DNA from: Gammaproteobacteria bacterium RIFCSPHIGHO2_12_FULL_63_22
Lineage (GTDB): Bacteria > Pseudomonadota > Gammaproteobacteria > Xanthomonadales > Xanthomonadaceae
Assembly (NCBI GenBank): GCA_001801685.1
Contig: MGYJ01000078.1
Coordinates: 124,001 to 188,000, forward strand
Direction of reading: 5' to 3'
Length of the DNA: 64,000 nucleotides
In this document: in pieces, positions 29,230 through 33,221 of the stretch
How the letters are laid out: every line of letters starts with the position of its first letter
Position numbering within the stretch: the first letter of the stretch is position 1
The notes under the pieces: generated by a model
Told to the model about the DNA's origin: nothing
Databases searched by the model: none
Seen by the model: the letters and a program-made list of their open reading frames with translations, nothing else
Position numbers and translations under genes: made by a program

Positions 29230-29692
29230 GGGTTCTGGGTGGGGTGGTGGCCGGTGATCATTTTGAGTCGCCACACGGAATCGGCTTGGTCAAAATAATC
29301 CCCGGCCACCACCTACGCGCACCTGTGACCAACATCGCTTCAGTGCAACACCCTGCCGTACCGTCGCCAACGCAGGTCGCCCGGCGCCGCCAGTCGCACT
29401 TCGTGCTTGGTGGGGACAGCCGGGCGATCCTGCGTTTGCAGGCAGTGTGCGTGGGCGTCGCTTCGCTCGCCGCAGGTTGGCGACAAAACGCAGGATCGGC
29501 CGCTGGTCCCCACCGAGCAAGCCTGCGAATGGGGCAGCGGGCGACCTGCGTTTGCGGTGGTACGGCAGGGTGTTGCCGTGAAGTCCCAGACCGCGCAGGA
29601 AGTTGCAGGCGAGCGCCGGCTTTCATTTTGACCAAGCCGATCCCGTGCGGCGACTCAAAATGAAAGCCGGCGATCGCCAGTCGCGATTAGCT
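29230..29692. repeat. Giant imperfect palindrome, copy A (about 463 bp)
   Basis: The whole segment folds back on itself. Paired arms in nested order: 29261-29295 with 29626-29660 (33 of 35 complementary), 29346-29362 with 29559-29575 (17/17), 29371-29383 with 29538-29550 (13/13), 29406-29417 with 29506-29517 (11/12), 29425-29437 with 29486-29498 (13/13), leaving a loop of about 48 nt. The outermost arms each also fold locally (TTTTGA with TCAAAA). Reading frames on both strands encode look-alike peptides ending ILTKPIPCGDSK, a consequence of the symmetry and not of coding. A second copy lies at 32754-33221. No transposase is present. It fills most of the 29204-29875 gap. Confidence 0.93.
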
Positions 29693-29728
29693 CTTGAGAA
29701 TCGCCAGTCGCGATCAGCTCTTGGCGAT
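29673..29728 (+). repeat. Two tandem 27-bp units at the end of palindrome copy A
   Basis: A unit starting ATCGCCAGTCGCGATTAGCT at 29673 recurs at 29700 with a single early difference (TTAGCT becomes TCAGCT). Copy B has one such unit (33202 onward). The rest of 29729-29875 shows no gene. Confidence 0.7.
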
Positions 29729-29875
29729 CGCCCTTCACGACGACCCGTTGCGGATTTGCCGGGCAGGGCACAGTTCTTGCTTGGCTGAACGGGGTATGGT
29801 CGTTCCGACCTACCCGCCGTGGTCTATTTCGACCGGGGCATAGCCACGCCGGCCCTGCCGGCCCAGGGGAAACAC

Positions 29876-32671
29876 ATGCTCGTACGTGCTGCTCGCAACC
29901 TGCGAACCTGCTTCGTCGCCATCCTCGCCACGCTTGCCTTTGTCGGCAGCGCAGTCGCGGCGCCTTCGGATACCGGCCTCGCTTCCCGCCAGTTCGGCAA
30001 CGGCCGCCCGGTCAGCCTCAACGACCTGCCGGCAGGGCAACTCAAGCGCCGCCTGGAATCGCTGGCGCCCAAGGCACAGTCCAACGCGCTGCGCTGGCTG
30101 CAGTACATCTCCTTCACCGGCACCGACCTTGACCTGCTGCGGGTTGACGACGGTGGCGGCGTGTTCTTTGCCGACACGATGCGGCCCGACAATGCCATGC
30201 GCAAGGCGGCCAGCAAATCGACCGGCACTGTCAGCGCGGCCTATGTGCCCAGTGATGCGTTCTTCCTGCACAGCCGTCCCGGCGCGACCAAGCGCGTGTA
30301 TCTCGATTTCAACGGCCACACTTTTACCAACACCGCGTGGGGCGCCGGCACGTTTGTCGGCGTGGCTTTCAGCATCGATGCGGACCGCGCCAATTTCAGC
30401 GACGCCGAGCGCACCGCCATCATCAGCATCTGGCATCGCGTGGCCGAGGACCTGGCGCCGTTCGACATCGACGTCACCACCGAAGAGCCCGCCAGCTTCA
30501 ACAGCACTACCGGTCGCGTCCTGATCACCGAGGACAACCAGGCCGACGGCACGGCCATGCCATCGCAAGGGGCGGGCGGCGTTGCCTATGTCAACGTGTT
30601 CGGTGCGTCGAACTACCACACCTACTATTCGCCGGCGCTGGTCTATGCCGAGAACCTCGGCCCGAATGTGGACACCTACATCGCCGAAGCGTCCTCGCAC
30701 GAGTTCGGCCACAACCTCGGCCTGTCGCACGACGGCACCACCGCGGGCGTGGCCTATTACGCCGGCCACGGTACGGGCCTGGTGTCGTGGGCCCCGATCA
30801 TGGGCAACAGCTATTACAACAACGTCACCGAGTGGAGCAAAGGCGAGTACACCGGCGCCAACCAGACCCAGGACGACCTGGCCATCATTGGCGCCAAGCT
30901 CGGCTTCCGTCCCGACGACCATGGCAACACCATTGCCAGCGGCACTGCGCTAACCGTCGCCGGCGACGGCACCGTGGATGCGTCCAATCCGGAGCTCGAC
31001 CCCTACAACCTGTTGCCGCAGAACAAGGGTGTGATCAACTCGGGCACCGACGTCGATGTCTTCACCTTCATCTCCGGCAGCGGCCCGCTGACGCTCACCG
31101 TAACGCCGGCTTGGGATGCGTTCTATCGCGCCACTACCCGCCGCGCAGCCAACCTCGACGTCGGACTGGAATTGCGCGACAACGCCGGCAACCTGGTCGC
31201 CTCCAGCGATCCGAATACGGATACGTCGGCCGTGGTCTCCGCGACCGTGGCAGCCGGTACCTATCACCTGTTGGTGACGGGCGTAGGCAACGCAGTCGTG
31301 CCGTATTCCGACTACGACAGCCTGGGCCAGTTCTTCATCAACGGATCGATCACCACCGGTGTCAGCGACACGACGGCGCCGAACCCGAATCCGATGACCT
31401 GGGCCAGCGTGCCGTCGCCGACCGGCGAGAGCACCATCGCCATGACGGCCAGCACGGCAGTGGATGAAACCAGCACCGTGCAGTACCGCTTCAACTGCAC
31501 CAGCGGCGGCACCGGTTGTGTTGCCAGCGCGTGGCAGGCCGGCACCTCCTACGTCGCCAGCGGCCTCGCACCAGCAACGCAGTACACCTTCACCGTGCAG
31601 GCACGCGATTTCTCGGGCAATACCACCGCCGCCTCATCGGCCGTCAGCGCGACCACCGACACGCCGCCCCCGCCGCCGCCCTACTTTGATTTCGTGGCCG
31701 GCAGTGAAAGCACCGTGGCAGGCTCGTTGTCTGGCAACTACACCAGCACTGCCACCGACAACGGCGTCGCCGAGTCGATCACCGAAGTGTCGTCGGGCGG
31801 CCAGCCGGCCAAGCGCTTCAGCCAGCTCGAACATCGCTGGAACTTCAACCTCAGCGCCGGCATCAGCGCCACGCTGGTCGCCAACGCCTGGAGCAGCGGC
31901 TCCACCGATGGCGATACTTTCAACTTCCAGTATTCGACCAACGGCGGCAGCAGCTGGACGACGATGTTCAACGTATCGTCCACCAGCAATGGCAACGTGC
32001 AGAGCTTCGTGCTGCCGGGCGCGCCGAGCGGCGCGGTCATCGTGCGGGTGATCGACAGCAACCGCACGGCCGGCGCCACGGCATTGAACACCGTGTCGGT
32101 GGACCACCTGTACATCCAGGTCGCCAACCCGTCCACCGATCCGCCCACCGGCAATCCATCGGGCCTGTCGGCCACGGCGATATCGTCCAGCCGCATCGAC
32201 CTGGCCTGGACCGATGGCGTCAGCAACGAGTCCAGCTACCGCGTCGAGCGTTCGCCCGACGGCAGCACCGGCTGGACCGTGGTGGCGACCCTGCCGCTTG
32301 ACAGCCAGTCGTACAGCGACACGACGGTGGCGGCGAGCACGACCTACTTCTATCGGGTCAGCGCCTTCAACAACATCGCGAGCACCGGCTACGCCAGCGC
32401 CAATGCCACCACGCCCGTCGCCCCGCCGCCGCCAGCCATCGCGCTGACGGCCGTCGGTTCAAAGGTGAAGGGCGTCATCCGCATCCAGCTGAACTGGACC
32501 GGCGCGAGCAGTGTCGATGTCTACCGCAACGGCGGCGTGATCGCCCCGAACGTCAGTGGCACGTCCTATCTCGACATTACGGGCTCGAAGGCTGCCGGGA
32601 CCTACACGCACAGGGTATGCTTGGCGGGCAGTACGACCACGTGCTCGAATACGACGTCCACTGTGTTCTGA
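29876..32671 (+). CDS. Secreted zinc metalloprotease with PPC-like and fibronectin type III domains
   Basis: A 931-aa exported protease. ATG 29876 follows an AGGGGAAA site and opens a signal peptide (about 28 residues, cleavage near AVA-APSD). The metzincin zinc site is H275-E276-x2-H279-x5-H285 (HEFGHNLGLSHDG). After the catalytic domain come a pre-peptidase C-terminal-like beta domain (about 370-490), a fibronectin type III domain (about 500-595), a Pro-rich linker (PPPPPPYF), a beta-rich domain (about 605-750), a second FN3 domain (about 765-845) and another Ig-like C-terminal module. Such enzymes are typical exoenzymes of Xanthomonadales. It is monocistronic and flanked by the two giant palindromes. 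Confidence 0.92.
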   Translation: MLVRAARNLRTCFVAILATLAFVGSAVAAPSDTGLASRQFGNGRPVSLNDLPAGQLKRRLESLAPKAQSNALRWLQYISFTGTDLDLLRVDDGGGVFFADTMRPDNAMRKAASKSTGTVSAAYVPSDAFFLHSRPGATKRVYLDFNGHTFTNTAWGAGTFVGVAFSIDADRANFSDAERTAIISIWHRVAEDLAPFDIDVTTEEPASFNSTTGRVLITEDNQADGTAMPSQGAGGVAYVNVFGASNYHTYYSPALVYAENLGPNVDTYIAEASSHEFGHNLGLSHDGTTAGVAYYAGHGTGLVSWAPIMGNSYYNNVTEWSKGEYTGANQTQDDLAIIGAKLGFRPDDHGNTIASGTALTVAGDGTVDASNPELDPYNLLPQNKGVINSGTDVDVFTFISGSGPLTLTVTPAWDAFYRATTRRAANLDVGLELRDNAGNLVASSDPNTDTSAVVSATVAAGTYHLLVTGVGNAVVPYSDYDSLGQFFINGSITTGVSDTTAPNPNPMTWASVPSPTGESTIAMTASTAVDETSTVQYRFNCTSGGTGCVASAWQAGTSYVASGLAPATQYTFTVQARDFSGNTTAASSAVSATTDTPPPPPPYFDFVAGSESTVAGSLSGNYTSTATDNGVAESITEVSSGGQPAKRFSQLEHRWNFNLSAGISATLVANAWSSGSTDGDTFNFQYSTNGGSSWTTMFNVSSTSNGNVQSFVLPGAPSGAVIVRVIDSNRTAGATALNTVSVDHLYIQVANPSTDPPTGNPSGLSATAISSSRIDLAWTDGVSNESSYRVERSPDGSTGWTVVATLPLDSQSYSDTTVAASTTYFYRVSAFNNIASTGYASANATTPVAPPPPAIALTAVGSKVKGVIRIQLNWTGASSVDVYRNGGVIAPNVSGTSYLDITGSKAAGTYTHRVCLAGSTTTCSNTTSTVF

Positions 32672-32692
32672 TTTGCATCAATCCAGGGGAAG

Positions 32693-32725
32693 AGGCGCCA
32701 TGAGCAATCGTGGCGCCTTTTTTTT
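32693..32725 (+). terminator. Rho-independent terminator after the metalloprotease gene
   Basis: AGGCGCCA (32693-32700) pairs with TGGCGCCT (32711-32718) around a 10-nt loop, and a run of eight T residues (32718-32725) follows. It sits 29 bases before palindrome copy B. Confidence 0.93.
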
Positions 32726-32753
32726 GCGCTGTTGTCTTGAAGGTCAAGGACTT

Positions 32754-33221
32754 GGGTTCTGGGTGGGGTGGTGGCCGGTGATCATTTTGAGTCGCCGCAC
32801 GATACCGGCTTGGTCAAAATAATCCCCGGCCACCACCTGCGCGCACTTCTGACCAACATCGCTTCAGTGCAACACCCTGCATTACCCCCGCCAACGCAGG
32901 TCGCCCGGCGCCGCCAGTCGCACTTCGTGCTTGGTGGGGACTGCCGGGCGATCCTGCGTCTTCTCACCAGCTTGCGTGGGCTTCGCTGCGCTCGCCGGAG
33001 GTTGTACCGGCGACAGAACGCAGGATCGCCCGGTGGCCCCACCGAGCAAGCCTGCGAATGGGGCAGCGGGCGACCTGCGTTGGCCGGGGTACGGCAGGGT
33101 GTTGCCGTGAAGACCCAGACCGCGCAGGAAGTTGCGGGCGAGCGCCGGATTTTATTTTGACCAAGCCGGTATCGTGCGGCGACTCAAAATGAAAGCCGGC
33201 GATCGCCAGTCGCGATCAGCT
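32754..33221. repeat. Giant imperfect palindrome, copy B (about 468 bp)
   Basis: Second copy of the element at 29230-29692, in the same orientation. The outer arms 32785-32819 and 33155-33189 are fully complementary over 35 bases. Inner arms are kept: CAACACCCTGC near 32870 with its complement near 33100, and CCAACGCAGGTCGCCCG with its complement around 33068-33085. Copy B differs from copy A in the middle of the outer arms (GCACGATACC in B, ACACGGAATC in A), and both arms of B carry the matching change. No coding capacity is credible. It fills the 32672-33228 gap together with the terminator. Confidence 0.93.

Follow-up and report, generated by a model that had tools for sequence, protein, structure and literature searches.

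In the parts of the published account cited here, repetitive extragenic palindromic sequences (REPs) of the GTAG type have stems of 5 to 13 bp, and those of the CGTC type are palindromic, form head-to-head dimers, have 8- to 9-bp stems with loops of 4 to 5 nt and come with no dedicated transposase (PMC3733652). Inverted REP doublets, or REPINs (REP doublets forming hairpins), show common spacings of 71 and 110 bp in the section cited (PMC3116915), and TnpA-REP is described, in the portion used here, as reading single-stranded hairpins strand-specifically (PMC8266576). We analyzed a window of 64,000 nucleotides (the whole stretch studied, positions 124,001 to 188,000 of contig MGYJ01000078.1) from Gammaproteobacteria bacterium RIFCSPHIGHO2_12_FULL_63_22, a member of the genus Arenimonas, which contains two near-identical intergenic palindromes, copies A and B. 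Our interpretation, to which we give roughly an even chance, is that both are a non-autonomous, REPIN-like repeat of four hairpins whose tip is read as a single strand; we infer that the repeat is mobile and that an enzyme mobilizes it.

An earlier note on this DNA had described two noncoding copies of about 465 bp, each folding end to end into one nested hairpin with a loop of about 48 nt. Their places proved exact: copies A (463 nt) and B (468 nt) were 91 to 92% identical from end to end, with two direct repeats (29230-29435/32754-32959 and 29508-29696/33037-33225) of 94% identity each. The nested arms of copy A measured 64 nt (81% complementary, 29243-29306/29615-29678), 51 nt (86%, 29338-29388/29533-29583) and, flanking a 48-nt centre that agrees with the reported loop, 34 nt (85%, 29404-29437/29486-29519), so that the phrase "almost all perfectly complementary" was too strong for the long arms. 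None of 100 shuffles folded as well as copy A (-311.5 kcal/mol; z = -16.2), copy B (-329.3 kcal/mol; z = -19.5) or copy A folded as DNA (z = -15.4). With DNA parameters, the two ends of copy A formed separate local hairpins and not one giant stem, a first hint that the palindrome is composite. In keeping with the noncoding description, long frames across the copies had no match in Pfam (two frames) or PHROGs (three frames). Among the 10 host-genome entries holding the first hairpin (H1), one of which runs into a contig end and one of which crosses unknown bases, the frame through H1 had 36 to 203 codons where closed, and because of this variation we saw no conserved protein encoded by the element.

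The basic unit is a hairpin of about 24 bp rather than the giant palindrome, and the element is a composite of four hairpins. The tip is conserved (consensus A-GTC-GNN-GCNCGNNAYC-NNC-TTGG-T), while stems vary from one locus and one genome to another. With a few changes, this 23-nt tip caps wholly different stems in Arenimonas oryziterrae (G008) and two other Arenimonas genomes, where hairpins occur singly, in pairs and in alternating arrays; 23 were found by the hairpin model in A. oryziterrae, where 6 weaker matches fell in the same places on the other strand. From 34 representatives, 26 were aligned (one degenerate hairpin, with 15 of 24 pairs, being among those left unaligned) and 25 retained after a hairpin with a shifted stem was left out. 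In these 25 distinct hairpins from Arenimonas and two metagenome-assembled genomes (MAGs), prefiltered for at least 14 of 24 paired positions, 22 of the 24 stem pairs changed on both sides, covariation reached 0.740 (0.200 shuffled, at most 0.170 slid), 92.9% of the pairing cells were paired (63.4% shuffled, at most 41.0% slid) and each hairpin had Watson-Crick pairs at 19 to 23 of 24 positions. Without the stem filter, 42 of 49 distinct loop matches had 15 to 23 of 24 pairs, and the remaining 7, which came from the order scan and lie outside the genus, had 3 to 8. Variable stems under a fixed tip suggest that the tip is read, and that its reading may spread the repeat.

The tip has a structure of its own. 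In the Burkholderiaceae MAG LH_M2 (G681), 43 hairpins formed 20 forward..reverse pairs, which spanned 465 to 611 bp and often about 563, and 3 singles. Their inner 3-bp stem was GCG/CGC in 24 cases, GCC/GGC in 13, GGC/GCC in 2, and GCA/TGC, GTC/GAC, GTG/CAC and the mispaired GCC/CGC in one each. Both this inner stem (0.491 versus 0.118) and the outer one (0.264 versus 0.101) covaried beyond 200 shuffles, as computed on the 33 distinct hairpins among the 43. The octaloop of the tip, CNCGNNAY or, read from the opposite strand, RTNNCGNG, recurs on inner hairpins within the 20 paired elements. Of the 38 octaloops there with stems of at least 8 bp, 37 fitted this motif, as CNCGNNAY in the left half and as its complement in the right half. 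In the Arenimonas stretches that we fetched, none of 8 octaloop hairpins with stems of at least 8 bp matched it.

Stem mismatches were not evenly shared between the strands. On the strand carrying GTC, the 25 aligned hairpins had 22 A.C cells and 7 G.T cells, 5 of which lay at the stem base; in G681 the counts were 51 and 8, and a single shifted variant supplied 7 of these 8 G.T cells. G681 also had 45 C.C and 38 C.T/T.C cells (7 of the latter from the shifted variant) versus 10 purine-purine cells (7 from the variant). On the complementary strand (CCAA...GAC) these become G.U/G.T, G.G and G.A, which are the best tolerated mismatches in DNA. Accordingly, that strand was predicted to fold better in 24 of 25 and 43 of 43 hairpins with RNA energies (67/68) and in 22 of 25 and 43 of 43 with DNA energies (65/68). 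Because of this bias, one strand, as single-stranded DNA (ssDNA) or RNA, looks like the working form, and the cruciform with two equal strands that the earlier note had offered is disfavored. The lack of a clear preference for G.U over G.G and G.A leans weakly toward DNA.

The host genome (4.26 Mb, 99 contigs) gave 30 BLAST matches, read as ten loci carrying 19 loop matches; the exact sequence TTTTGAGTCGCCR occurred 18 times, confined to these loci. All seven contiguous two-hairpin copies were forward..reverse doublets, and the seven copies compared were 82 to 95% identical. Contig ends of C94, C5, C69 and C75 fall in or beside copies and one copy contains unknown bases, so that copy number may be undercounted. 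No plasmid or phage match to the element was found in our searches. With Rfam 15, the only match between 29000 and 33400 was RF02871, at 19.7 bits (gathering threshold 43) and outside the elements. A search for intrinsic terminators, as a hairpin followed by a T run, gave 2 weak sites, each on the edge of H4, versus 2.9 expected in shuffles. The suggestion of a non-autonomous mobile element thus gained from the ten loci, the patchy spread and these negative searches, but not in its original form, since the giant palindrome is not the basic unit. None of the findings named as fatal to it, namely a match to an insertion sequence (Y1_Tnp being the sole transposase family searched), a lack of further copies or pairing at chance level, was encountered. 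A second intergenic repeat family is present in the host genome at C69:47135 and C92:9924 (L163:636-740 and L164:625-731), shortly downstream of a reading frame; its tip, GTCGC..GCGAC-TTGG, is related, and its matches to the hairpin model are weak (27 to 31 bits).

Features of copies A and B in the window and loci in the host genome (names of flanking genes in the window are from Pfam)
Feature	Position	Strand	Remarks
Copy A, four-hairpin element	29230-29692	+	Starts 27 bp past the end of the aldehyde dehydrogenase gene (29203)
A-H1, outer hairpin, forward	29243-29313	+	24-nt arms 29243-29266/29290-29313; conserved 23-nt tip 29267-29289
A-H2, inner hairpin, GTC..TTGG-like tip	29369-29436	+	Weak model match, 32 bits, 29359-29446
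A-H3, inner hairpin, reversed	29487-29552	-	By eye only; no match to hairpin model
A-H4, outer hairpin, reversed	29608-29678	-	24-nt arms 29608-29631/29655-29678; conserved tip 29632-29654
Tandem duplication, right end of copy A	29673-29726	+	27-bp units, 85% identical
Gene after copy A		+	Reprolysin-like and fn3 domains
Copy B, four-hairpin element	32754-33221	+	Between convergent genes ending at 32671 and 33229 (SufE)
B-H1, outer hairpin, forward	32767-32837	+	Arms 32767-32790/32814-32837
B-H2, inner hairpin	32893-32960	+	Weak model match, 27.9 bits, 32883-32970
B-H3, inner hairpin, reversed	33017-33081	-	By eye only; no match to hairpin model
B-H4, outer hairpin, reversed	33137-33207	-	Arms 33137-33160/33184-33207
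Further loci and copies A and B, host genome			A, B, C31, C75b, C40, C2
C69b, host genome			Right hairpin lost
C78:190 kb, host genome			Interrupted by unknown bases
C94/C5 and C69a/C75a, host genome			Two loci read as split over contig ends

Beyond the host, the hairpin is scattered. Pattern and model agreed on 4 of 27 Arenimonas genomes. Across the host order, 9 of 299 genomes matched the pattern and 2 were real (G000 and G008), the other 7 being rejected since their stems had just 3 to 8 of 24 pairs. A scan of genome_contigs with one loop pattern returned 11 stretches, of which A. oryziterrae supplied 9 and the Burkholderiaceae MAGs LH_M1 and LH_M2 the other 2. LH_M1 (G682) has one hairpin pair, and three genomes of the G681 family (G687, G737 and G746) have one hairpin each; in this family 6 of 74 genomes matched the pattern, 5 of them with stems. 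In the order of G681, 18 of 399 genomes matched and 2 were real (G681 and G737); the rest were rejected, their stems pairing at no more than 9 of 20 positions. A class search with the hairpin model found 1 of 369 genomes, which is weak evidence of absence, as just 11 candidates per genome were scored, and all the loop patterns used miss diverged tips. A viral source was also considered and rejected: none of 107 IMG/VR stretches with a loose loop pattern was counted as real (two paired at 11 of 20 stem positions but at only 1 of 3 inner ones, and the rest had fewer than 11 stem pairs), and a stricter pattern had no viral match. Our searches of open-licence PMC papers brought up none that we recognized as a description of this hairpin family.

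The elements sit in intergenic gaps, mostly after genes, as judged with a simple open reading frame (ORF) caller. None of the 23 elements of G681 overlapped a predicted gene, and the nearest gene end was mostly 26 to 131 bp away, the exceptions being one between divergent genes (L224) and one 669 bp from its left-hand gene (L239). Twelve of the 23 lay between convergent genes, 10 between tandem and 1 between divergent ones, versus 4, 39 and 5 of 48 background pairs (Fisher's P = 9e-5 for convergent). Similarly, 5 of 8 contiguous loci in the host genome were between convergent genes, versus 7 of 59 adjacent pairs in the window. Both orientations of the hairpin are found in A. oryziterrae, and at L165 and L174 a hairpin lies between divergent genes. 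In this genome, a forward..reverse pair (L167:3324-4056) brackets a lower-GC ORF with a weak similarity to Imm26 (E = 0.0011, below the cut-off), and three near-identical hairpins of one orientation lie near GTGGGAGCGGGCCTGACCGCGA-type repeats (L170:15491-16316). None of the copies that we read carried a transposase gene.

In the mechanism that we propose, H1 and H2 would be forward units and H3 and H4 reversed ones, a free-to-vary stem of about 24 bp carrying the conserved tip on the outer hairpins. The hairpin would work as a single strand of polarity 5'-A CCAA N3 G RTNNCGNG C N3 GAC T-3', and a putative protein would recognize the tip in ssDNA, such as that of the lagging-strand template, and so might spread the element. 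Inverted doublets, a patchy spread and a one-strand bias together give the shape of a REPIN, in which a transposase reads a folded single strand. As in the portions of the REPIN literature cited above, the unit is an inverted hairpin pair, extragenic and noncoding, with a predicted long ssDNA hairpin. Unlike REPINs, which have a short GTAG-tagged stem and, in the section cited, spacings of 71 or 110 bp, these elements have variable stems of about 24 bp with a conserved tip and span 465 to 611 bp with two hairpins per half, and the host genome of copies A and B has no Y1 transposase match. Since the tests of tag, stem length and REP-associated tyrosine transposase (RAYT) failed, we say that the element works like a REPIN, not that it is one. 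With CGTC REPs, as far as the cited part describes them, it shares the palindrome, the head-to-head dimers and the absence of a dedicated transposase, but stems and loops are shorter there and CGTC is missing from most hairpins here.

Miniature inverted-repeat transposable elements (MITEs) and the enterobacterial RU/YPAL repeats are described as small, non-autonomous and intergenic with inverted ends, and the present element is likewise multicopy and noncoding; it differs in that no target duplication was detected and that the conserved part is the hairpin tip, not a terminal sequence. Integron attC sites are imperfect hairpins placed after genes, with one active strand and a free stem sequence, and their hallmarks are conserved R boxes at the ends and a nearby IntI. 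The hairpins described here resemble them in the first three respects, but they are conserved at the tip rather than the ends and are scattered among chromosomal genes. A bolder version of our reading, which we consider rather unlikely, is that of a new class of single-strand-read hairpin, in which exchangeable stems bear a conserved octaloop and an asymmetric internal loop, that moves between Arenimonas and Burkholderiaceae by a non-RAYT enzyme and can pick up a gene between its hairpins.

Several observations weigh against a mobile repeat of this kind. The flanking duplications that the earlier note had suggested counting were not detected: direct repeats shared between flanks at the 20 paired G681 elements averaged 5.90 nt for own flanks and 5.94 nt for cross-paired ones, and host-genome copies were checked by eye only. 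No empty site was seen. The host genome had no match to Y1_Tnp (PF01797), a search that covered neither other transposase families nor G681. At 82 to 95% identity, the host-genome copies give no evident sign of recent movement, and their inner hairpins are degenerate, H2 matching the model weakly and H3 being recognized by eye. The strand asymmetry may stem from mutation bias, and its counts are not independent, since hairpins within a genome are related. Finally, in G737 and G746 (Burkholderiaceae) the dnaK-dnaJ gap contains a single hairpin whose CCAA strand is the one in mRNA sense and whose stem differs between the two genomes but is near-perfect in both (20 and 19 of 20 pairs; L245:1501-1523 and L246:1480-1545). 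This arrangement looks like an RNA function that has been retained; Pfam is the source of the names DnaJ and Hsp70 and of the gene names in G746. Because of this case, the strongest rival is a structured RNA, a protein-binding or mRNA-protecting hairpin in transcripts whose copies are kept for function, to which we assign a minor but real probability. It would also account for copies placed mostly shortly downstream of stop codons and for the A.C excess on the GTC strand, which is G.U on the other. It fits less well with the inverted halves of the element, which leave only half of any one transcript in the favored polarity, with a G.U count (51) not clearly above G.G (45) and G.A (38, 7 of them from the shifted variant) in G681, with the want of an Rfam family for the window region and with a distribution too patchy for a housekeeping role. 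A hairpin was present at just 2 of 30 DnaJ loci (G746 and G737), and G740 has a dnaK-dnaJ gap of 2 nt though its DnaJ is 93% identical to that of G746; the same survey led us to reject dnaK-dnaJ as the ancestral home. It matched 29 of 30 chosen genomes, and 6 of its 30 loci lacked a start codon and some were cut by contig ends.

We regard as improbable that these are neutral palindromes kept symmetrical by template switching during replication, which would give covariation without function. A switch could leave what is seen at a matching site between an AhpD-like and a GMP-reductase-like gene (named by eye), where G682 has a full pair and G687 one hairpin mixing features of both ends. The right end of copy A is also tandemly duplicated, and inspection by eye showed short tandem duplications at the right ends of C69a/C75a and L218 too. 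Drift, however, would be expected to erase the loop first, whereas across the two host groups no part is better conserved than the tip; its inner 3-bp stem covaries, and the mismatches are strand biased. Very unlikely, in our view, is an ordinary family of REPs or bacterial interspersed mosaic elements mobilized by a RAYT, that is, a Y1 tyrosine transposase. The copies are indeed extragenic and palindromic, with inverted doublets and alternating arrays, and Y1_Tnp genes were found in 21 of 27 Arenimonas genomes, including the hairpin carriers G008, G005 and G017. Yet GTAG was nearly missing from the 12-nt flanks (1/25 on each side in the Arenimonas-plus-LH set; 0/43 and 1/43 in G681), stems of about 24 bp exceed those in the cited account of GTAG REPs (PMC3733652), the host has no Y1_Tnp match and the RAYT loci searched lack the tip motif. 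Those of G005 and G017 and one of two in G008 are flanked by other repeats, of GTAGGAGCG or GTGGGAGCGGG types, the second G008 locus has no flanking copy of the tip motif, and model matches beside the RAYT genes of G005 and G017 were of the stem only, without the tip, so that a RAYT origin was rejected. In G681, 18 of 43 hairpins had CGTC within the 12 nt flanking them 5' on the GTC strand, as did 6 of the 25 aligned ones. In A. oryziterrae, a RAYT-like Y1 transposase gene (L158:1300-2100) is flanked by GTGGGAGCGGGCC repeats, an ordinary REP-type association.

In the parts of the papers cited, REP families have their identity in a flanking tag and a short stem; in the present family it is the tip that stays the same in distant hosts, and the stem may vary. 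With its strong covariation, the family offers a clean substrate in the search for a protein that would read the tip. Should the repeat prove mobile, spread of the REPIN kind would not be limited to the RAYT system; should it be an RNA, it would add a structured motif that Rfam lacks, a copy of which sits in a dnaK-dnaJ operon.

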